Origin: Pegea sp. RAD2-039
Lineage: Eukaryota; Chordata; Thaliacea; Salpida; Salpidae
Length of the DNA stretch: 64,000 bases
Direction: 5' to 3'
Assembly: GCA_034620365.1 (NCBI GenBank)
Contig: JAQGEQ010000270.1
Span: forward strand, 558,001-622,000
Of this stretch, positions 9,105-64,000 are shown in pieces. Every line of letters starts with the position of its first letter. The stretch's first letter is position 1. The position numbers and the translations under genes are program-made. Below the pieces are notes generated by a model that was given only the letters and a program-made list of their open reading frames with translations, had not been told where the DNA came from and did no database searches.

Positions 9105-12100
9105 CTATTTGTAAGGAGGTCTCCACGAAGATTTGATCTTTTTAAGTCTTGAAAGATTGGAGGAAGATTGAGGCTGAAAATCTTCATCTTCAACCAAATT
9201 ATCTGCAAAAGTCTTCTGGAGATCAACAGCAGATTGTTCCTCGCTTCTAATAGATGAAGAGTAGAATCAGATCATAAAGAGGAGTCAAACCCGATTACTT
9301 TGTTTGCTCCGCAGAGTCATCTAGTGTTAAAAATATTGACTCTAACTCATCTTCATCAAGATCCTCATCCAAGTCTTTCAGTTGTAAAGATTTTTCGGTT
9401 TTCTGTAGATGAAAAAGAATTACAAATCTGAATAAAAAATCAAGATTGGGAAATACTTTAAAATAGCTGAAGATGTTCTTCTGCTGAGAAGCTGGCATCT
9501 GACAACTAGGTGTCGCTGTCTCGTTTTCAATATCATTGAAATTAGTTGCATTTAAACCAGTCTTACCCAAAATATCTAATTTATTTTTTACCATCTGAAA
9601 AAGAACATCATACTAATGATTGCTTCGTGAAACTTAAACAAACTCTTGAACAACCTGCCAGACGTAGTCGTCTGAAGTTCCCTTGGCAACCAAATAGTTG
9701 ACAACGACAGCATTTTTTTGACCGATTCGGTGACAGCGATCTTCAGCTTGCAGTAAAATCTGAAGTAAAAATCATTTGAATATAGCTTCAACCATCTAAA
9801 CACAATTTAAAGATGGCTTCAACCATCTAAACACAATTTAAAGATGGCTTCAACCATCTAAACACCATCTGAAGATGGCTTCAACCATCTAAACACCATT
9901 TAAAGATGGCTTCAACCATCTAAACACCATCTGAAGATGGCTTTCTACGATGGCTTCAAACTTACTCCTGGATTCCAGAACAGTTCAGCAAACACAACAA
10001 GCTGAGCCGCATGCAATGTGATGCCCATGTTAGAAGATGTGATGCTCAAGAGAGCGACCTTGCAAGAAAGAGTCTTCTGGAATCTGTTCACTTCTACTTG
10101 ACGCTGTTCCGAGTTAGTTTTTCCATCAATCCGAATAAAGTCGACATTCTGAAGAAGACAGATGAATAAAGAAGAATGGAGGTAGCTGTTGGAGTACTTG
10201 TTGTTGTAACTGCATCTCAATTGCGTTCATCATCGACTGATGATGTACAAAAACAAGAAACTTTTTATCACTTTCCAATAAATCACTGATGTAGGTGAGA
10301 ACAGCTGGTGCTTTGATGAGAGCTGTATCGTGAAAGAGCTCGAGAAGTCGATAGTGTCTATCAAAACCCTGTGACGTCACACTAAACGCTGGATTCCATC
10401 AATTAGATTCCACTTACCGACAAACCAGTCGCAGCGACCGCCTTCTTCGACTGTTTTATGTTTTCTTTCTGATTCTCAGTCAACTTGATTCCACTAATAT
10501 CCAACTGAACTGAAGTTCTTAGTTTGGGGGGGAGCTGAGAGAGAACAGAGTCTTTAACACGACGGATCATCAGTGTCTTCTTGAGGATCAAACGTAACTC
10601 CTCTGAGTTGGATGATCCCGCAAAGTCCCATCCCCATGGTGTCTGTTACAAGAGTTGTAAAGAAGATTCGTTTGAAATCAAACTGACTTTTTTAGCGTTG
10701 CAATAACGGATTCCAAATTCTTGTGAGTTACTAAAGAGATCTGGGCGAAGTAGGGCCAGTTGTGGATACAGTTCAAATGGTCGGGATAGGGCAGGGGTCC
10801 CAGATAGAAGAATCAAGTGCTCACATCGGTTCAGGATTGAAAATACAGCTTTGGTTCTCACAGATTTGAAGTTTTTGATGAAATGGGATTCATCCTACAA
10901 GATCAGATGATCAACGAATCACATGTGAGCTAAAAGCTTACTAAAATCGCGATTCGAAACTTGACAGCTTTAAATCTGTCAATCATCTTATTGAGTAGCC
11001 CGTAACTAGTGATGATGACGCGGTAGTGACGTGATGAGACAGAATCTGCTCCTTTCAAAACAACGTTGATGTCATCTTCACCAAGTTGCGATGGCAACCA
11101 TTTCAGCAGCTCCTGAAAACAACTCGGAATTGATTAGAAGAGTGAAAAATAACAAAATGATCAACCTCTTTCCACATGAGACGAACTGAAGAAGGGCAGA
11201 TAATCAGTAGGGGCCATTTGTCTCGATAATAGGAAGCTATACAGATGGCTTGTATGGTCTTGCCCAGTCCCATGTCATCGGCCAGGAGTACTCGTCCCTT
11301 CTTCGAAATTGAGAAGCTGAAAACCCGTGATAGAATAGAAGCTGTGAGAAAAATGAATCAATTACTTGACTCCGTCTTTCTGGAACGGAAATAGTGAGTT
11401 GACGAGATGGAGATCCACATTTGAAAGATCATTTACAGATGAAGAGGTAGAGGGTTCTCCGGAAATAATATCTTGGAAAGATCGGCATATAACAGAAGGA
11501 AGAGGTACCAACCGAACATCTTTTGCATCCGACTTGAAAGATGAGACTGATGAAAACAAAGTTTAGATGTTGAAAGATGCAAAAAAAGATCTTTTTACTT
11601 AGGTTTTTGTGATCAGAAAGATGAAAACTCCATCGGCGAGTCTGTGCATCATATGCTTTTGTAGGAAGACTCTTGAAAATAGAAATAGAATTTGCATGAT
11701 AAGAGATTTGTACTTCAAATCGGGTTTCACTAATCAAGTAACATCTGTTTAAAAAATTGAAGGTAAATAAAGATCAGAAGATGAGGGAAGATCAGGAGAT
11801 GAGGGCAGATCAGAAGATGAGGGCAGATCAGAAGATGAGGGAGATCAGAAAACGAGGGAAGATCAGAAGATGAAAGCAGATCAGAAAATGAGGGAAGATC
11901 AGAAGATGAGAGAAGATCAGAAGATGAGGGAAGATCAGAAGATGAGGGAAGATCAGAAGATCAGATCAGATGAGAGAAGAGAAGATCAAATGAGGGAAGA
12001 TCAGAAGATGAGAGAAGATATGACAAAAAGTAAGATAAACTCACTTACGTAGCTACAATTTTTTTCTGTGATTGATCTTTCTGTTTATCATCTTCAAATA

Positions 12101-12764: not shown

Positions 12765-13745
12765 TTAGATGAGTAGAATTGGTTCGCCATTTCTAGCACC
12801 ATCAGTTAGAATGTCTGTATGAGCCTTTCTTGCACTTGTTAATGATATTTTAGATGATATCAATGGAGTCACCCAACCTTTACTTACACCAGACTCAACA
12901 GCAGCTTTCATCTCTAAAATATCTTCTTTTGAACAATCAGCAAAGCTGATACCATAAACATGACTCTCTTTAGCCATCAGTAGCCGAGGATTGATCTCAA
13001 CACAACCTCGGCAGCCAATCACACAAATAGAACCTCCATAAGAAATCATCTCAAGATCTTTATTAAGATTAACATTAGACTGTAGCTCTAAAATGATGTC
13101 TGGTCCTTTACAGTTGGTTATATCCATGATCTTTTTAGTGTAACCTTGTTCGCAATGATCAACAACAAAATCCATCGCCTTGTTTTTCACTAACTTAGGA
13201 TCACTAGTAGTTCCAATCACTTTCAAACCGCGCACAGAAGCCAATTGACAGGCAGCTGAACCAATACCTCCTGAAACACCATGTATAAGGACAGTCTGAC
13301 CAGGTTTGGCATTAGCTCGTTGAAACAAAGCTCTATAAGCAATCATATAAGATGACCCGATACCAGCTGCCTGAATCAGATTGTAATTATGTGGTAACTT
13401 GATTAGCCAATCAGTGTGAACAGCACAATATTCAGCATAAGCACCACTTCGGACATTAATAAACGAAGCTACTAAATCCCCAACCACAAAACCTTGAACT
13501 TTTTCTCCAATTTTAGTAATAGTTCCAGAAACATCATTACCAGGTATATATGGTAATGGCGGAAGTTTAGAGTACATACCTGATCGTATGTAAGTGTCAA
13601 CTAACGCAACACCAACAGCAGAAACTTTCACTAACACCTCATGAACTCTTAGTTGTGGGATTGGAACATCTCTGTGAACTTCTAACACACTAGGATCACC
13701 AAATCGTTTTACAACTATAGCTCTCATTTTGGAGCCTAACATCAT
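12765..13745 (-). CDS. CRYZ: zeta-crystallin-type NADPH:quinone oxidoreductase, intact paralogue
   Basis: A single uninterrupted exon of 326 residues, the usual size for the zinc-free MDR family. Zeta-crystallins reduce ortho-quinones with NADPH by single-electron transfer and can bind AU-rich RNA. Family landmarks are in order: MRAIVVKRFGDPSVLEV start, PYIPGNDVSG (about 65-74), the intact nucleotide-binding loop HGVSGGIG (155-162), NVNLNKDL (about 225) and a C terminus ending GEPILLI. No zinc ligands are seen, as expected. Methionine 7 (13727) aligns better with family starts than the first ATG. It is the tandem neighbour and duplicate of the gene at 13998-14996. The lack of introns in both suggests the parent copy was already intronless or retroposed before duplication. 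Confidence 0.9.
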   Translation of the reverse strand: MMLGSKMRAIVVKRFGDPSVLEVHRDVPIPQLRVHEVLVKVSAVGVALVDTYIRSGMYSKLPPLPYIPGNDVSGTITKIGEKVQGFVVGDLVASFINVRSGAYAEYCAVHTDWLIKLPHNYNLIQAAGIGSSYMIAYRALFQRANAKPGQTVLIHGVSGGIGSAACQLASVRGLKVIGTTSDPKLVKNKAMDFVVDHCEQGYTKKIMDITNCKGPDIILELQSNVNLNKDLEMISYGGSICVIGCRGCVEINPRLLMAKESHVYGISFADCSKEDILEMKAAVESGVSKGWVTPLISSKISLTSARKAHTDILTDGARNGEPILLI

Positions 13746-13997
13746 TTTAGGTTGATCTTATCAAAAAAGCCTGCTTCATTCAACAGCTAGTTTAGTGAAT
13801 ATATTCTTCAAAAGTTGATAATCTTTGTACTAAATGGGAAATAAACTGAAATAAATGTACAATCTACAAATATAAAAAATCTTGAAAAAAAATTATAAAA
13901 AATTGAAAAATAAACACAAAATTTATATTCCAAGAAAATAATTGTTTAGTAAAATATAAAATTTCATAATATTAAAGGAATATAGTTTAAAATAATA

Positions 13998-14996
13998 TTA
14001 TAAAATGACAACAACACTCCCAGCTAGCTCATGAGTGTCTGAAGCTGCTCTATGAGCTTCTCTAATATCTTTAAATGCATACTCTCTACCTATAACTGGA
14101 TCAATGATAGATGCTTTCAATGCTGCTTCAATACTGGCTTTCATTTCAACTACTTCTTCAGATGATAAATACTTTAATGTCACACCAACAATATGTAGTT
14201 CTTTACTTGCAACTTCAAATGCTTCAACTTCTACCTGACCTCTATTTTCAATAATACAAATTGTACCTCCATGAGCACATATTTCGATATCTAGAGCTAA
14301 GTTTACATTTGCCAACATATCTAAGATGATATCAGGTCCTCTGTAACCACAAACTTCAATAACTTTCTCTTTAAAATCTGGTAATGATGAATTAAATGCA
14401 TGATGAAAGCCCTGGTGTTTGAGCTGTCCAACCAGAGTTTCATTACTAGCACTACCAATCACAACCAAGCCATTAGCAGAAGCTAACTGTAAAGCAGCGA
14501 TTGGTACAGCTTCAAAGACACCATGTACCAACAAAAAGCTACCAGGTTTTACTTTTGTAGCTTGAAACAAAGCTCGATATGCAAGCATATAAGAGTCACC
14601 AACACAAGCAGCTTTCCTAAAAGGAAATGTTGATGGTAACTTTACAATCCATTTGGTATTAGCTACACAGTAATCAGCAGTTACACCAGTTCGCACATTT
14701 ACAAAAGTAGCAACTCGGTCACCAACTTGAAAATCGTCCACTTTCCACCCAGTTTTTACAATAGTACCAGATGAGTTGTTACCAGGAATGTAGGGAAACA
14801 ATGGCTGGTGTAGTGACTTACCACTTCTTACTAACACATCAATAATATTAACTGAAACAGCAGCTACTTTGATTAAAACTTCATTAGGAAGCAAATGAGG
14901 TATCTGTACATCTTTATAAATCTCAATTACATTCTCATCACCGTGTTTAAGAACACAAGCCGCTCTCATTATAGTAGAAGATAGACATAGAGCCAT
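13998..14996 (-). CDS. zeta-crystallin-like paralogue with a broken cofactor-binding motif
   Basis: A single-exon protein of 332 residues, colinear with its neighbour and with zeta-crystallin: MRAACVLKHGDENVIEIYKD start, PYIPGNNSSGTI, GDRVATFVNVRTG, YMLAYRALFQ, GPDIILDMLANVNL and GREYAFKDIREAHRAA. The glycine loop that grips the NADPH pyrophosphate reads HGVFEAVP (158-165) where the neighbour has HGVSGGIG, so two glycines needed for the tight turn are gone. The frame is otherwise intact and full length, which argues for selection rather than decay. It may bind cofactor weakly or serve as a pseudoenzyme, for example in RNA binding. The divergent loop was re-read on the nucleotide sequence and no frameshift explains it. 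Confidence 0.88.
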   Translation of the reverse strand: MALCLSSTIMRAACVLKHGDENVIEIYKDVQIPHLLPNEVLIKVAAVSVNIIDVLVRSGKSLHQPLFPYIPGNNSSGTIVKTGWKVDDFQVGDRVATFVNVRTGVTADYCVANTKWIVKLPSTFPFRKAACVGDSYMLAYRALFQATKVKPGSFLLVHGVFEAVPIAALQLASANGLVVIGSASNETLVGQLKHQGFHHAFNSSLPDFKEKVIEVCGYRGPDIILDMLANVNLALDIEICAHGGTICIIENRGQVEVEAFEVASKELHIVGVTLKYLSSEEVVEMKASIEAALKASIIDPVIGREYAFKDIREAHRAASDTHELAGSVVVIL

Positions 14997-15042
14997 CTTG
15001 TAAATACAATTTGTAATTTATATCTATCAACTAGCTTTAAAC

Positions 15043-25930: not shown

Positions 25931-28900
25931 ATGAATTATCCTAACAACTTAAGATTTTCTCAATCATCCTCTCCAACATCCATTAACACTTCCAACCAGT
26001 CAGTATTTTGCAATATGGCAAATTTTGTCTTCAATCAACAACTGGCCACGCAATTGGATTCCACAGCTTCAAATCATCACTGCACATCGACTGAAGTAGA
26101 CTCTTCCGAAGCTGAAGATCTTAGCATCAAATCAACAAACAATCAAAGAAACTCGATGAATAAAAAATCCAGTTTTGCTTCTAAAGAGCGATCTTCAAGT
26201 ATCAACTCTTCTGTGTGTACTGGAAATCTTGATACTAATTCTGCAAATAGATATTGCTCAAGTGATGAAGAAGTCGATATTGAATCTAACAGCTCTCAGA
26301 AACTCACCAGCCCGCTATTTTTTCCGAAAACTGCGTACTTATCTTCCGATACTTTCAGCTCCGCCATTTTGAGTAAATGCTCGCTGGCGGAAAAGTTTAA
26401 TGTGAGTTGGTTATCTAAACATATCAGCAATTCAAATATTTCAGTTTAAATTATTCAATGAAACTAAAACATTTTCAAATTAAATTTTCAGTTTTAAACC
26501 TTTTTTTTCCTTTACTTTGTTTATTTTTTATTTCTGAGTTATAAAATTGATTCTTTTTCTAAATAATTATTAGAAAGTTCTTTTTTTTCATTGATGAATT
26601 GAAAGTTTTACTTTGATGACTTATTATAATATTATTATTATTTAAATCATATTTCAATTACATGCCAGTTAATACTTTTATAATTTTATTGTTCTTTTTT
26701 TATTTGAATAATTATTATTAGATGAAACCACAGTTTTTAAACTTATAAAAATTTATAAATTTTGTTTCAATACAGACTAATTTAAGAGGAACATCAAACT
26801 ACAAATCTGAAGCAAGTACATCTTCTATTTGCTCCAAAAGAGAACTTGAAGATAATTGTAGCGAAACTAACATGAAACAAGACCCAGGAGAAGCTCTTAA
26901 TAAAAACCTATCTTCTAATAACTCATTGCCGTCCATCAAACGATACCGCACAGCATTCACACGAGATCAAATCAGATCTTTAGAGTGTGAATATCAGCGA
27001 GAAAATTACGTTTCTAGGCCCAGAAGATGTGAACTAGCAAATGAGTTGGGACTACCTGAATCAACAATAAAAGTAAAATTTATTTATAAATTACAATTTC
27101 ATTAAATATTTAAACTAATTAACTAGAAGTTGCTGATCACAAATGATTTGTATAACCGAGAATATTTGAAATCTTATTTGAGTAAATTTGGTTTTATATA
27201 TAAAACAAACAAATTTTAAATTATTTTTATAAACTGTAACAGTAACAAATGGCTGAGCAAGAAAGAGTTGAAAAAGTTATCTTCAAAACTACTTTAATTA
27301 GAAAACTCTTAAATTATAGAATTTATGCAAAAAAATTAAACGATTTTTAAACTCAAGGTTTGGTTTCAAAATCGACGAATGAAAGACAAGCGGCAAAGAC
27401 AAAGATGGCCATTCATTGAGGACCCAATGATTTATGCCATGCTTCTATCTCAGCTCTCTTATTACTGTCAACGTCAACAACGACAAACAAGCTCTTCATC
27501 TTTCTTGAATCTTCCAGCTCAATCCAACTTTCCATCAGTCATTGAAAGTGAGATTTACAATCATCGATGTCTTTAAAATTTGATAATTTTTATTTTTTTT
27601 ATATAATCTTTTTCATTTTTGCATTAGCAAACAAACTTAGTTGTTATCTTCATAATTCGATGGTAAGAATTATACTGAGATAAGACAAAATATCAAATTT
27701 TATTAAAAGTTGTTTATTTTGAAGTTTTGATTCATTTTGTCAAAACCAAATTTTTGTTTGTCGAAAAAATCGATTGTATTGCTTTACTAAATGATTAAGA
27801 AAATGTAATTCTTAAGTCTTATTGGTTTGTTAATTGATTCTTCTAATTAATAATATTTATTATTTAAAACTTAATTAGATTGGAATTTAACAGCCGTTTA
27901 ATTTACTGAATTGAAACCTTAATTTTTAATACAAAATCTTAAAATAAATTATTTATGTAAAAACTGGAATTAGTATTTTCCTTTCTTTTTTCGCTTTCAT
28001 TAAATTCATTAAAAATATATATTGATCGTTTTTATATCTTAATTCTGATAATATTATAAATTTATAAATTATTTTTGATAAAATTTATTAATCTATTTTG
28101 GAATTACATTTTAAAGAAAAGAAATAAATATATATTTGTATTGTTCTTTTGATTCTTATAAATTGAATAAATTGAAAAGTTTATTCTTTTCAAAAATGTT
28201 TTTTAGGCTTTGTATAAAATTTCTTAAATATTCAAGCAACACGAATTTGTTGTTAAAAGACGTAACTGTTCAAAACATATTTTGAGATTTATTCGTCTTT
28301 ATAATAAAAATATTCCTACTAAATTTATTTAATAAGAAAAGTAGTTTATTTTAACAATTGAATTTTCAACTTAACTTTTAAATCTCTAAATTTAAGGTGT
28401 TAATAAAACAAATTATAAACGAATGGATGTTTTTCGAGATAATAAAAATTACATTTTGAGTAAACAACTAAATTTAAAATTTATTGATTTATAGCAGTTA
28501 AAATTTCAATAGATATTGAACAAATAATTTCAGTTTTTAAAGTATGACGAAGAATTGTTTGAGGAAATATTGTTGCTATTTTTTACAAAAGCTCTACTTG
28601 CTTGTAGTAAATATCCATAAATATACAATTTAAGAACCGATTTTCGAATATAAAATAATTGTAGATAATTTCTGAATCAAAAACTTTTGCAGATAATGAA
28701 AAACGTTTATTGGCTGCATCAACACAATCATTTCCACTACTAAACCCCTTTCATCCTTACACACAAATCGAAAAAAAGTTCTCTTTGAGAGATGAAGTCA
28801 AGAATAATGACAATAAAGATCAAAATGATATAAATCTTCATCAAACAAACAAACAATCTTCAAATTTAAGTAGTTTTACTGCTTGCAAAGATGATAAGAA

Positions 28901-34782: not shown

Positions 34783-37700
34783 TCAGTCGTTGGTGTTTTG
34801 ATCATTCAAATTGAATCCGTTATCATCAAAACCATTAAGAAAAGACCAATCCAAATCCATAATATTGTCTTCAGAATTCAACTTCATATCTTCAACAATT
34901 GAAGATACCCTACATCGAGTGTCAAACTTAATCGAAGATAAAAGATGTTTGATGTTTGATTCTCACTTTTGAAGATTCAATCCCATTTCTTTAGTAAGTT
35001 TTTCAGCTCTCCTCTCAACTCCAGCATTCAGATCTCTCTGAGCTCTCACGTTCTCTCGGCTAATCAAATTGCCGTAAATTTGACTAAAACGTTGTAGCTC
35101 CTCAAACAAGCTCATGTGTGTCCTCTAAAGATCACAGGATCATTTAAAGATCAATTAGAGATGAGCAAGCTCACATGTAAGTATCGAAGCAGATCAAGAG
35201 AGCAATCGAATCGGTTATTTTGTTGATCCAGCATCTTTTCAGTTTGAACTTTGATACTTTCATCTACGATCTGAATATCAGTTCCAAAAAGAACAAATGA
35301 GATCCGACGATGAGCTTGAACGAGGAAACTGAGAAGATAGGAAGATCAGATCTTTTATCTTCATCACTTTACGACTTACTCCATCGACTTGACAGCTTCA
35401 TTCAACATTTCACTCGCGAATTCATTTAGAGGAAGAACAACTTGAAGAATAAGATCCTTCAGCCTCATAAACGCCTCTGCATCAACAAATCAACATCAAT
35501 TCAAAGATCACTACGAAGATCAGACTGACGTTGGATGAGAGTATCAACATCTGCTTTGTTCTTCTCACTTAGATCGCGTAAAGGTCTCGCGAAAGCGCGA
35601 AAAGGCTTAGCGACAGAAATCCAACTTTTTCTCCTGAAAGATCAACATCCAGTTGAAGTCACGTGATGATCTTATCTCTTACCTCTCCAGGATTTTCTCG
35701 ATATTTGTGTCAACAAAGTTGGAGTTTTTGTGAAGAGTGTCATTGATCCTGGGAACTGGATCAGCGGCACTTTGAACTAGTTGACATAAATTGGGAAGTT
35801 CATTCAAGCGGAACTTCTCCAAATCATCTTTATGACTCTTGCACTTAACTCTAAGAGGTCCTTCAACTACCAGATGTAGATTTGAGATCAAATCATCTTC
35901 TACATCTTACTTACCATCATTAGGATTGAGGGAACACTTCTTACATTCATTTGTCACATTCTGAACCATCATTCGCAACATTCCACGAAACTCATTGAAG
36001 CGTGACGTCAACTCTGTATCAACACTTTGATCAACCAATCATATCACAGTGAAGCGCGCGAACTCGCTTACTTTCGCCCTGATCGCGACAGTTTATCGAT
36101 AACTTCTTGACACTTTCATTTAAGGTCGAGAGCGATTTAAGAGTGTCCGTACATTGATTAAGTTGTTGGTTGATGTAGAAGATAATTAGATTGAAGATCT
36201 GAAGAGGATTACCAGATTGCTGCGTCTAAAAATCAGTGTCACGTGACTTGTTTGGTTTCAGGGAGGGGAAATACCCGCTGCTGATCAGATACATCTGAGA
36301 TTTCTTTCGGGATCGGGATTGGCTTGACATTAAAAGGTCTATCAGTAGTAAAGACATAGAGAACTCTAGGAGGCTGCAAAGAACTTTAAAGAGGTTGAAG
36401 ATCTAATCTTACACTCACCCCGTGATGACGTATGCACTGATTCTCAATTAGTTGTCTCGGATCGGGTACATCCCCTTTTTCAAACAAACAAATCAGCTGA
36501 TCATCATAAAAAACCGACATCAGCTGAGCAAGTCGCTGCTTGAGAGGTCTCCGAGAGTTTTGAGCCCCAAAAGGAAATTTGACCATTTTGCACTCTTGAG
36601 TGTTAAAGACATAAATCATCTGCAAAAACAAACAAGATGAAGATCGTGAGAACAATATTCACGTGATACCTGGGTTTCTGTGAGGACCGAACAAAGTTCT
36701 TTGTACCAGTCACTACCTCCTCGCTTCTTGGCATCCAATATCAACATACTTTGAAGCCAAGGAACTATTTTCTCACTGCTAGATTCATGTAACCAGTTCG
36801 GATGTGGAACTGTTGATGAAAACCGATAACCAGACTCTGAGATCAAAAGTCAATTGTTGAGATGTAAATGAGATGAAGATACAAACCCATAGAGTAGATG
36901 GTACAGATGTGAGAGTCTGATTTATTTGCTTGAATTTCTCGAGTGACTCTGACAGGTTCTACAAAAGGATAGAAAGGTCTTCTGCCTGTGATACACTCAA
37001 AAGCTACGAGTCCAAAACTCCAGAAGTCGACTTTCACTGTATGATAAAGATTCCCTTGTTGATTCCAAAACTCCGGAGCCTTCATATAAGAAGTATTTGG
37101 AATTGTTGAAAGACATTCAAGTAAAGCTTACGATGTAGTGCCACGTCCCGACCAAGCTGTAAGCGTGGTTCTGACCACTTATATCTTTTGCATAACCCAA
37201 GTCAATGATTTTGAAGACTATATTATGTTTTGCATCTTTTTTCATTACAATATTTTCTGGTTTCAAATCTCTTCAATAACAAATTACAAGTGAAACTGAA
37301 ATCAGATGAAAAAGAATATCTCACCTGTGGATGATACTGTTCCTGTGAAGATAGTGAAGAGCATCACTGATACCTTTCATGAAATCACGGAATAGATATT
37401 CAGGAAGACCACAGTTGTAATCAATTTTACTTAACATCTAGTAGTCAGAGATAACATCAATACATGAATGATGATAAATGAAAGTTTGAAACATACAGAG
37501 CGGAGATCTCCTTCATCACAATATTCCATTCCCAGCGCTTGATAATCTTTCACAAATCCGTAAAGAATGCATTCAGGAATCTCTTTGTATTTCACAATAT
37601 TTGGATGATCTATCTCTTTAGTTTGTGCAATCTATATCGTTATTAGGAGACAAAATTTGGATTTTTAGTTGTTAAATTGTTTTATTTAATTTTAATGATT

Positions 37701-61300: not shown

Positions 61301-64000
61301 ACAACTCTGTAATAACGAGATCTAATCCGATTTTGTTTTATCAGATTGATTAAATTTAAATATTCTTCAGAATTTCTTGTTTTATTTGAATATCTTAAAT
61401 ATATAATTTCTAAATAAAGAAACTTATCTCATAAGTATCAAACTTATCGAAATATATTTGTTATATTTTTATGTTTAAAAGTGATTATATAACATTAAAG
61501 CTCATCTTAGGGTTAGATGTTGAAGAAGCGAAAAACAAAGAAAGGCGTTTGATGCTTGCTGATGCAAAAGATATTTATGATTGTGTTTCAAACGGAGGAA
61601 AGCTGAAAATTCCAAAACATCCCAAATCTGGAGCAACTCCACTGCATGTTGCAGCTGCTAAAGGTTATAATGAAGTACTCAAGTAAGTAATAACTAGTAA
61701 CTTAGATTGGTTGAATGGTTGGTAAATTTGTGAGACATCTTAGCAACTTGCTTTTGCAGAATCCTAATTCAAGCAGGACTTGACATAAATGCTTATGATA
61801 ATGATAAATGGACTCCTCTGCATGCTGCATCACATTGGGGTCAAGAAGAAGCTGCAAAGATTCTCTCTGACAAGGGAGCTAACTTCACAGCGCGAAGTAA
61901 ACTTGGACAAACTCCTTTAGATGTAGCAGATGATGATATGATCAAATACATGGAACGACTTGAAATTCAACAATCTCTTAATGTACTTTTCATCTTCTTC
62001 TTCATTTGATCCTCATCTTCATCTTCACAGAATAACAAGAAAGATCTCAACGCCAAATTTCACATAAGCTCGTTGAGCGCGAATGATGACGTCACATCGT
62101 CGTCTTCCTCAGCAGCTGAAGATGAGTCTTCATCAGAAGAAGAAGTCGCAGAGACGCGCGTCCTCGCCAAACCTCCTCTTGCATCCCACTTGGTGACTAC
62201 GCAACCGCCCTTGTCTCTCTCGACTTCCGGTAGCGATCTGCATGTGACGTCAGCACTACCCTACGTCAGTCGACGTCACAACCGACCCGCGTCTATCCAT
62301 GTAACCACACCAGTCCAGATAAAGACCAGCGACCACGAGACGCCGTCATCAATGGCAACCAAGAAGACACACGAGAAACCAACAGTGATGGTAAGCAGCG
62401 CGACTCATAACAACCGTAACCAGTTAACACCGCGTCCACTAGGTGACGCCAAATGAACGAAACTTGGGAATGAAGGAGAATGCCCCGTCTACTTGGCGGT
62501 CAGGTAATCCCCTCCCATCTTTACCCGTCCATTTGTGGCCCTTTTCAATCTTGTCCACTTCAGGTCTTCGTAAAACGGGAAGCTTTGAAGAGAAGCAGCA
62601 GGCAACGCCGCGCATCTCGTCAGGGATCAACAATCGCCACGTCTTCACGCCCAAACGACCCACAGATATCGTCAAGGTTTGTGGTTGCCATGTGCTGACG
62701 TCACGTGGTAGTTGTTGATGATGACGTCACTACAGCAACAGCAACAGGAAGCTAGCAACGAAGCAGCTGGAAGTAAGATTCGAACAGCGCGAGTAGCTCC
62801 TCTTTTGGACACAGCGAAGAACTTCTCGAGAAGGGAGGAACCTTTTACTTGGTAACTTCCTTCCCTTTTTCTCACGCACCATTTCTAAACCCTTCTTCTG
62901 TTTGCAGTCAACCACCAACCAACAACATCATCATCGACAACAAAAAGTTTGTTTCAATTTCTTCTCTTTTCTTATTTCTTTCATCTTCATCTTAAGCTCT
63001 GACGTCATTTCGCGTTCACCGCGCTTCTTGCGTCTCGAGTCTTCTGAACGGTTGCAAATGCGACGAATGAACAGCTTTACATCGTCGATGATGATGTTCG
63101 GGCGGTTAGAAGAAGCAAGCGCGATTCCGCGATCGCACTCGTCGTCACTCCTCGCCATCAACGATAGGTTTGAAGCTTCTGGAAGCTTCCACGAGTCGCT
63201 AATTCGACTGCTGCTGCTTCAAACCGGGGCACAATTTCCCCATTTTTAATTCCCCAAATTCAGTCGTCGCGAAACTAATCGGCTAATCAGCTTCTTTCAA
63301 CCAACCAATCAGTTTTCTTCATTCTTTGTTTTTTGTAGCAGCATCGCGACCGTTGGAGAAGACTCGAAAGATGAGGACAGTTTGTAAGTTACCACTCTTC
63401 TCATTTTAGTATATTTTGCTCATCATGCTCTTGTGACGTCATAGAGAGCAGAAGCAAGATAAACGAAGGTCTCATCTACAACCGGTTCGCGACGAAGAAG
63501 CAGAAGCGCAGCGGAAAGCGCGATCGCGTCGCGAACGACAAACGCGTCGATCCACACAGGGAGTCACACTCGGTAAGATCCTCATCACCGCTCTCTAGTA
63601 ATTACAAGTACTAACGATGACGTCATAGATGTGTACGAGGAAGCGAAGCGTCACATTAGTACGATGCAACGAAAACGCGATGAGTCGAATTCGGCGGGAG
63701 CGCGCTCTTCGGGTATCTTCGACTCGGATCTAGACGGCAAAGGATCAAATGTTAGTACCTTAAATCTTACGAACGCTCGTTACTCATCTTTGACGTCATC
63801 AGGGATCGTTGTCACGGCGACGTCAGCTGGATGGAAACGCTATTTCCAACTCGTCGTCATCACAACAGCAGCAAGCTTCCACGACCGCGCTTCCGGCTGG
63901 TTACATCCCTCAAGACAAACGGATCAAAGCCGGAAGTGATGTCAGGCCCACCTGCTATCTGCATCCCGCCCATGGTACCCCTAAACTCCTTATGACGTCA
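58348..64000 (+). CDS. PPP1R12A: myosin phosphatase targeting subunit (MYPT/PPP1R12), 3' end beyond the window
   Basis: Fifteen exons are visible: 58348-58602, 60937-61067, 61151-61269, 61511-61682, 61760-61982, 62031-62390, 62443-62503, 62564-62676, 62736-62851, 62908-62946, 62997-63167, 63339-63383, 63445-63572, 63629-63750 and 63803 to about 63972. MYPT holds the PP1 catalytic subunit on myosin II and controls contractility. The KVKF docking motif (41-44) is followed at once by ankyrin repeats with strong family identity (GAVFLAACSSGDLQEV, NVDGLTALHQ, DNEGWTPLHAAASCGFLDI, PLHVAAAKGYNEVLK). Downstream are a Ser/Glu-rich linker, STWRSGLRKTGSF, and PVRDEEAEAQRKARSR leading into RRSTQGVTL, where Thr639 matches the Rho-kinase inhibitory site. 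The C-terminal coiled coil lies beyond the window. Intron 1 is 2.3 kb; from exon 6 on, introns shrink to 48-61 bases (one of 171) and the sequence turns GC-rich. Exons 10-12 are supported only by phase and splice sites. Confidence 0.93.
62087..64000. repeat. cluster of TGACGTCA octamers
   Basis: Exact copies of the palindrome TGACGTCA occur at 62087, 62245, 62696, 62722, 63000, 63434, 63618, 63791 and 63993. Four of them sit 3-6 bases before the AG acceptors at 62735, 63444, 63628 and 63802. Others lie in exons. Elsewhere in the window I found only 10372, also against an acceptor, and 36003, in an exon just after one. The octamer is the cyclic-AMP response element consensus, but the link with splice sites suggests a different role or origin. 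Confidence 0.85.

Follow-up and report, generated by a model that had tools for sequence, protein, structure and literature searches.

Why do several short introns of a single gene end in the same eight-base palindrome? The question is raised by a 64 kb stretch of the genome of the salp Pegea sp. RAD2-039 (assembly GCA_034620365.1, contig JAQGEQ010000270.1, positions 558,001–622,000 of the forward strand; hereafter the window, to which plain coordinates refer), in which introns of a MYPT gene carry the octamer TGACGTCA immediately before their acceptors. A first-pass annotation had proposed a lineage-specific splice-acceptor element, a trace left by introns gained from a short mobile element, or densely packed CREB/ATF sites to which splice sites are adjacent by chance. 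The last of these is supported by the present analysis, and the phenomenon is far stronger than can be seen within the window. The octamer is probably a CREB/ATF-type DNA site that is kept exact in CpG-rich gene patches, its abutment on acceptors being a by-product of density; the phenomenon would be one of DNA and of the genome as a whole, in which the adjoining splice sites appear for the most part to be bystanders, and the octamer would not then be required as a splice signal.

Abundance, exactness and flanks of the octamer

The whole genome as counted here (105.7 Mb in 387 contigs) contains 27,792 exact TGACGTCA sites and 969 sites of the mirror control word ACTGCAGT, in which the CG of the octamer is replaced by GC, a 28.7-fold difference. 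Since CpG is depleted in the genome (observed/expected ratio, o/e, of 0.72 over the sample), the mirror control leads to the expectation of too many octamers rather than too few. The letters taken from the genome amounted to 224 kb, plus loci fetched by means of TGACGTCATAG and bZIP loci; the random sample comprised 20 evenly spaced 10 kb stretches, all on one contig (C1), together with the window. Under a first-order model of this sample TGACGTCA is the most over-represented 8-mer (29-fold), and the window itself holds 11 exact copies, compared with a mean of 0.45 and a maximum of 3 in 100 dinucleotide shuffles. The sites are clustered, with 23 of the 99 intervals among the first 100 sites on C1 measuring 200 bp or less, where a Poisson process gives 1.3.

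The 24 words that differ from the octamer by one mismatch total 37,125 sites, a total above that of the exact word, which alone lies far above its control. Mismatches at position 1 number 3,063 (mirror 5,199; 0.59-fold), at position 2 9,103 (mirror 8,117; 1.12-fold) and at position 3 3,680 (mirror 3,379; 1.09-fold), ratios that the true excess may somewhat surpass, as these groups keep CG where their mirrors have GC. Position 4, which includes the CpG-transition word TGATGTCA, gives 21,279 sites (mirror 11,004; 1.93-fold). Neutral decay of an abundant word would leave many near misses; no such halo is evident at positions 1–3, and at position 4 it amounts to at most about two-fold. The core of the cAMP response element (CRE) is in this sense favoured over its single-base variants.

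The core is preceded by a purine and followed by a pyrimidine, the latter in 50,553 of 55,584 contexts (90.9%), compared with 955 of 1,938, about half, for the mirror word. Among 108 fetched sites the information in the flanks is limited to positions +1 (pyrimidine), +2 (C or A) and +3 (A), the two flanks vary independently (both are TCA at 11 sites, with 8.9 expected) and up to 90 bp from the octamer no further conserved signal was seen. As judged from these patterns the site is RTGACGTCAY with a weaker TCA-type extension, a form that would suit binding by a dimer of the CREB/ATF kind; RTGACGTCAY is the sequence preferred by CREB/ATF proteins. Genes for bZIP proteins are present, as indicated by 12 exon-level bZIP_1 matches in the genome.

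Two other words, ACAGGATC and TATGATCC, are also strongly over-represented in the sampled loci and possibly belong to a repeat family. Long tandem repeats with open frames at L021:6422–7952 and L025:943–2367 distorted the k-mer tables, and later counts were made with them masked or removed.

GC- and CpG-rich patches

The octamers are concentrated in DNA of unusual composition: 65 of 100 strand-counts fall in the 8.8% of the sample with a GC content above 0.40. In the CpG-rich 500 bp bins (71 bins, 35.5 kb) 82 strand-counts are found where the first-order model expects 1.4, a 57-fold excess, compared with 0–6-fold for the neighbouring words. With increasing distance from the nearest octamer, from 0–50 bp to 1.2–2.5 kb, GC content falls through 0.429, 0.405, 0.369, 0.340 and 0.308 to 0.265, and CpG o/e drops from 1.23 to 0.62, while GpC o/e shows no such drop. 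Around words with a central CG and matched composition GC content is 0.34 and CpG o/e 0.87, compared with 0.42 and 1.16 near the octamer. This halo of GC and CpG spans about 1 kb and is partly confounded by clustering and exon content. A sharp edge of this kind lies within MYPT, where GC content rises from 0.38 at 61501–62000 to 0.51 at 62001–62500 and CpG o/e from 0.34 to 1.21, both bins being mostly exon on our reading.

A second palindrome, TCACGTGA, of the bHLH-zip/E-box type, exceeds the first-order model 18-fold in the CpG-rich bins (26 strand-counts), without a clear excess in coding exons (1 versus 0.19); in contexts of CACGTG an A follows in 83 of 130.

Octamers in coding exons and introns

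Coding exons carry the octamer beyond what codon usage accounts for, and introns carry it more densely still. In 23 stop-to-stop open reading frames (ORFs) of at least 150 amino acids, taken from the random loci and the window, there are 11 octamers, distributed over five ORFs, compared with 0.93 when synonymous codons are shuffled within each ORF (maximum 5 in 2,000 shuffles); this set includes two tandem-repeat ORFs and one octamer-bearing window ORF that is partly noncoding and lies inside the finding. Leaving out the window and tandem-repeat ORFs gives 10 octamers versus 0.88 (12 ORFs), and leaving out a six-octamer ORF as well gives 4 versus 0.34 (11 ORFs), values reached by none of the 2,000 shuffles in either case; even by the strictest count, then, the octamer is not confined to spliced-out sequence. 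Octamer-rich coding sequence (9,237 bp from the tankyrase, MYPT and formin exons and the L021 and L012 ORFs, with one MYPT peptide dropped because it was not found) holds 18 octamers versus 1.02.

Gene models were built by homology and manual reading, and intron models manually. The 28 modelled introns (2,196 bp; labelled T, M and F) belong to tankyrase, MYPT and a formin, of which one gene was chosen by octamer density, one was fetched by TGACGTCATAG and MYPT was included because of the finding; left out were one tankyrase intron for which the boundary strings could not be located, a second that duplicates T2 exactly, and those introns of MYPT and formin whose ends were uncertain. When joined, the tankyrase exons match tankyrase chains in the PDB without gaps across the T9, T10, T14, T15 and T16 joins (E values of 1.7e-136 and 1.5e-95), and the formin exons match FH2 across F1 and F2 (3.2e-49). 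The MYPT match to PRKG1_interact (1.1e-15) spans only the last 28 residues; together with ankyrin matches it supports the predicted identity of the gene, not its exon joins. The remaining joins follow the human sequences as we take them to be.

These introns contain 26 octamers, in 19 of the 28, or about 12 per kilobase, situated at donors (F1 and T10), in mid-intron and at acceptors; in tankyrase we read 15 of 17 octamers as intronic. Introns in octamer patches mostly measure 45–60 nt.

In tankyrase (C1:2124080–2128245, L007 and L008), moreover, two ankyrin clusters share a 199 bp stretch at 93% identity (reverse-strand positions 289–486 and 1806–2003), with an octamer in each copy; the duplicate includes one identical 49 bp octamer-bearing intron and may reflect internal gene conversion or duplication.

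A probable CREB/ATF-type site and the possible alternative of recombination drive

The site resembles that of the CRE and its CREB/ATF (bZIP) proteins in its core, TGACGTCA, in its purine and pyrimidine flanks, in its twofold symmetry and in a footprint that ends at about 14 bp. In a passage of PMC551538 TGACGTCA is named as a known CREB site among conserved upstream words of flies and mammals, and GTGACGTCAC is called the CRE motif in the abstract of PMC4555227. The literal string RTGACGTCAY is absent from the CRE papers checked, in which GTGACGTCAC and ATGACGTCAT occur. Unlike the CRE sites that have been studied, which lie upstream of genes, the octamer has many exact copies in introns and coding exons, with single-mismatch words near background.

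A dimer of the CREB/ATF class would bind the octamer sites in the germ line, and this binding may keep short gene patches open and CpG-rich. Binding would then be the property that is preserved, either by selection or by a conversion bias between bound and unbound alleles. In short introns the stretch from branch point to AG would be one of the few free slots, so that several introns would come to end in the octamer. Octamers would abut acceptors because the introns in these patches, mostly 45–60 nt long, are full of octamers.

A textbook transcription-factor site would thus be present in some 28,000 exact copies, coding and intronic, with near misses at about background for positions 1–3 and about twofold for position 4. 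Such a pattern calls for strong selection at a very large number of sites within genes or for a copying bias in favour of the bound site, and either would be surprising. In such a genome, motif logos of short introns could display a false ‘splice element’. No report of a comparable genome was recognized in the open-access literature, among the titles, abstract openings and passages of the matches listed.

Two systems of abundant short words invite comparison. HIP1 of cyanobacteria is likewise an exact octamer palindrome of very high copy number in coding and noncoding DNA, but it is a different word, is bacterial and has no link to introns or CpG-rich patches. The Ruby motif of Caenorhabditis elegans piRNA genes is found as thousands of near-exact 8-mers in clusters; unlike the octamer it is not a palindrome, and the octamer is without a second conserved signal within 90 bp.

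The alternative that survives best, unlikely as we consider it, is a recombination drive of the CRE/M26 type, in which octamers would be meiotic hotspots like the Atf1–Pcr1-dependent M26/CRE of fission yeast. Breaks would arise beside the bound site, GC-biased repair would make the halo, and bound alleles would be copied over unbound ones, so that exact sites would accumulate without any fitness benefit. We hold as similarly unlikely, and if anything slightly more so, that a CREB/ATF-type site drives its own spread as an M26-like hotspot with its bias reversed, RTGACGTCAY gathering in introns and at synonymous exon positions and the surrounding kilobase becoming rich in GC and CpG.

The word itself is shared, as the 10 bp form of fission-yeast M26, ATGACGTCAT, lies within RTGACGTCAY, a likeness of sequence only. 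In the relevant passages of PMC3534124 and PMC9775316 this form needs Atf1–Pcr1, and visible breaks flank, on either side, an interval of about 70 bp that contains M26 and shows none itself; M26 has an ATF-class binder and is described there as active inside a coding region. The halo of about 1 kb points indirectly in the same direction, as do the sharp mosaic inside MYPT and the ectopic tankyrase duplicate (199 bp, 93%, with an octamer per copy), but unmethylated CpG or exon content could produce the halo as well, and a single duplicate is an anecdote. An active hotspot motif is normally lost through conversion, and hotspot motifs are expected to erode rather than to accumulate; the drive needs the opposite conversion bias, which is hypothetical. 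M26 is not described as hugely over-represented in the passages cited above. In budding yeast the short M26 word is reported in a passage of PMC3534124 to have no significant association with breaks and to be under-represented in intergenic DNA.

Position of the octamers relative to splice acceptors

The octamers of the window and their surroundings are as follows.

62007–64000: GC- and CpG-rich MYPT patch (GC 0.49, CpG o/e 1.29) with 9 of the window's 11 octamers, running on for about 0.6 kb beyond the window (L029:1–617)
62087–62094: octamer in a coding exon (DDVTS)
62245–62252: octamer in a coding exon (HVTSA)
62677–62735, plus strand: MYPT intron, 59 bp, with octamers at 62696 and 62722, the second 6 nt before the end (TGACGTCA CTACAG)
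63000–63007: octamer a few bases into a probable exon, read from the sequence, the exon boundary being putative
63384–63444, plus strand: MYPT intron, 61 bp, ending in TGACGTCA TAG; the next exon reads REQKQDKRRSHLQPVRDEE
63573–63628, plus strand: MYPT intron, 56 bp, with a TACTAAC branch-like word, then GA, TGACGTCA and TAG
63751–63802, plus strand: MYPT intron, 52 bp, ending in TGACGTCA TCAG
63975–64000, plus strand: 5′ half of a MYPT intron (50 bp) with a mid-intron octamer at 63993; modelled acceptor at L029:24
10369–10417, minus strand: SMARCAL1 intron, 49 bp, ending in TGACGTCA CAG (TGACGTCACAG), with the octamer at 10372–10379
36003–36010: isolated octamer, at most about 1 kb from a protein-kinase gene (minus strand; Pkinase match 36846–37127)

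The nine exact copies between 62087 and 64000, which lie in the 3′ part of the MYPT gene, had been noted in the first-pass annotation, as had four MYPT introns ending in the octamer. Those introns, with acceptors read from the sequence at 62735, 63444, 63628 and 63802, were modelled here at 59, 61, 56 and 52 bp, with the octamer 6, 3, 3 and 4 nt before the last base. The claim that the octamer sits directly on 3′ splice sites holds for these four of the nine copies and not for the other five, of which those at 62087 and 62245 are coding, those at 62696 and 63993 lie in mid-intron and that at 63000 lies just within a probable exon. The copy at 63993–64000 had been regarded as placed for a further acceptor, but the modelled acceptor, CACTTACAG, ends 24 nt further on, at position 24 of the next stretch of the contig, directly after the window (L029:24). 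The exon after the 63384–63444 intron presumably resembles human MYPT1, and the 63573–63628 intron joins RRSTQGVTL to DVYEEA, which we take to be the phosphosite region of human MYPT1.

The SMARCAL1 intron does end in the octamer followed by CAG (10379–10369), and CAG alone keeps the frame: on our reading of 10417–10369, only CAG/GGT is in frame and the two nearer AGs run into a stop. A Helicase_C match lies in the adjoining exon stretch, and the name SMARCAL1 is that of the earlier annotation, which we assume to be correct. A further MYPT acceptor abutted by an octamer, absent from the earlier list, is that of M14 (L029:3121–3132, acceptor L029:3132), and tankyrase, elsewhere in the genome, adds three (T6, T9 and T12), T6 having been fetched because of its TGACGTCATAG. 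On our reading of the flanks a frame is open through the octamer at 36003–36010, a candidate coding copy.

Should these acceptors be explained by a splice element? The octamer, as UGACGUCA in the pre-mRNA, would then replace the polypyrimidine tract and be read by an RNA-binding protein, a proposal that we regard as improbable and that is unsupported as a general explanation. In its favour, the octamer lies within 6 nt of the end at five modelled MYPT acceptors and one in SMARCAL1, and 7 of the 21 short-intron octamers stop no more than 4 nt short of the intron end, where uniform placement gives 1.12 (P = 0.00005), in a set that includes picked introns; without these the count is 3 of 15, compared with 0.84 (P = 0.049). 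Over the whole genome the octamer followed after 0–4 nt by YAG is found 10,544 times, compared with 12,617 for YAC, and TGACGTCATAG 893 times. The comparison of YAG with YAC is imperfect, since YAC reads GTR, which is donor-like, on the other strand, and ten context classes were therefore compared in the sample. In 219 contexts, drawn in part from five stretches retrieved through their TGACGTCATAG and from three selected as dense in octamers, observed and expected counts at offsets 0–4 were 53 and 24.4 for YAG, 48 and 23.8 for YAC, 54 and 34.1 for YAT, 61 and 49.2 for YAA, and 34 and 39.9 for RAG. The ratio is highest for YAG, yet the rise is common to YAC and YAT because of the motif's own TCA extension, with which 64 of the 219 contexts start (next base T in 21, G in 17, C in 14 and A in 12).

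No genome-wide excess just before an acceptor AG was found with these controls, each of them imperfect, and the local skew is weak. Copies in exons, at donors and in mid-intron also speak against a splice element, and the palindrome with its R..Y flanks suggests recognition of double-stranded DNA. CTAAC is rarer before the octamer than after it (368 versus 707), a comparison that was set aside because CTAAC is a weak proxy for the branch point here and because gapless TGACGTCACTAAC accounts for much of the first 100 listed places. An absence of acceptor excess beyond general abundance, named beforehand as what would speak against a special role at acceptors, is nearly what was observed; the abundance, on the other hand, is not simply an effect of GC content, because the single-mismatch neighbours are near background.

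The frequency of TGACGTCACTAAC without a gap among those first 100 places could point to a repeat, or to a flank that is favoured.

Pairing between self-complementary copies in one pre-mRNA, which would draw splice sites together, seems very unlikely. At least two copies are present in 4 of the 28 modelled introns (M3, T10, T14 and F2), near both ends in T10 and T14, but 15 of the 19 octamer-bearing introns have a single copy, and pairing leaves the exonic copies and the flank preference unexplained.

Still harder to credit is an artefact of composition or assembly, whereby the word would be common in CpG-rich DNA or be created by long-read consensus errors. The concentration of strand-counts in GC-rich sample would fit such an origin, as would a report (in a passage of PMC8973881) that the polymerase shows extreme kinetics at TGACGTCA when amplified C. 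elegans DNA is sequenced as single molecules, an effect tied by the authors to a possible cruciform structure. On the other hand, neighbouring words with a similar composition show no comparable excess, on which count a simple compositional explanation was rejected, the exonic copies listed keep their reading frames, and a pyrimidine follows in 90.9% of contexts. These kinetics could likewise confound the calling of modifications from long reads at such sites.

That a short mobile element ending in a palindrome gave rise to introns, as the octamers in many short introns might suggest, is the least credible proposal and was rejected on the flanks, as the similarity among the 108 sites stops at +3 on each side, the introns otherwise differ, and octamers occupy many intron positions as well as exons.

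Points that weigh against a CREB/ATF-type site kept exact

Several observations count against a CREB/ATF-type site that is kept exact in CpG-rich patches. Any purpose of binding at 28,000 sites would be hypothetical. The gene set is narrow (28 introns from three chosen genes), and the random sample is on one contig. Under a third-order model the octamer is 12-fold over-represented, and several words rank higher, for example GTCACGTG (18-fold) and GATCCTGT (16-fold). In the 466 bins of 500 bp outside the CpG-rich set the octamer reaches only 8.1-fold, with the neighbour TGACGTCG at 10.2-fold on 4 counts. The 1.93-fold value at position 4 means that some decayed copies may exist, and a single ORF (L021:379–1839) supplies six of the 11 ORF octamers. 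There is some 3′ skew in short introns, where a contribution to splicing is possible, and mean pyrimidine content is 0.72 in the nine octamer-free introns, compared with 0.54 in the 11 with an octamer near the 3′ end, a figure largely set by the octamer itself.

Other features of the window and its surroundings

A scan of the window against Rfam at gathering scores gave no match. Just downstream of MYPT, at L029:5026–5484, lie three tRNA-Gln(TTG) genes in tandem. On the minus strand of the window two adjoining, unbroken quinone-oxidoreductase-like ORFs occupy 12768–13757 and 14001–15017, the first of which matches PDB entry 1yb5 (E value of 1.5e-81) and the second of which is similar to it by eye.

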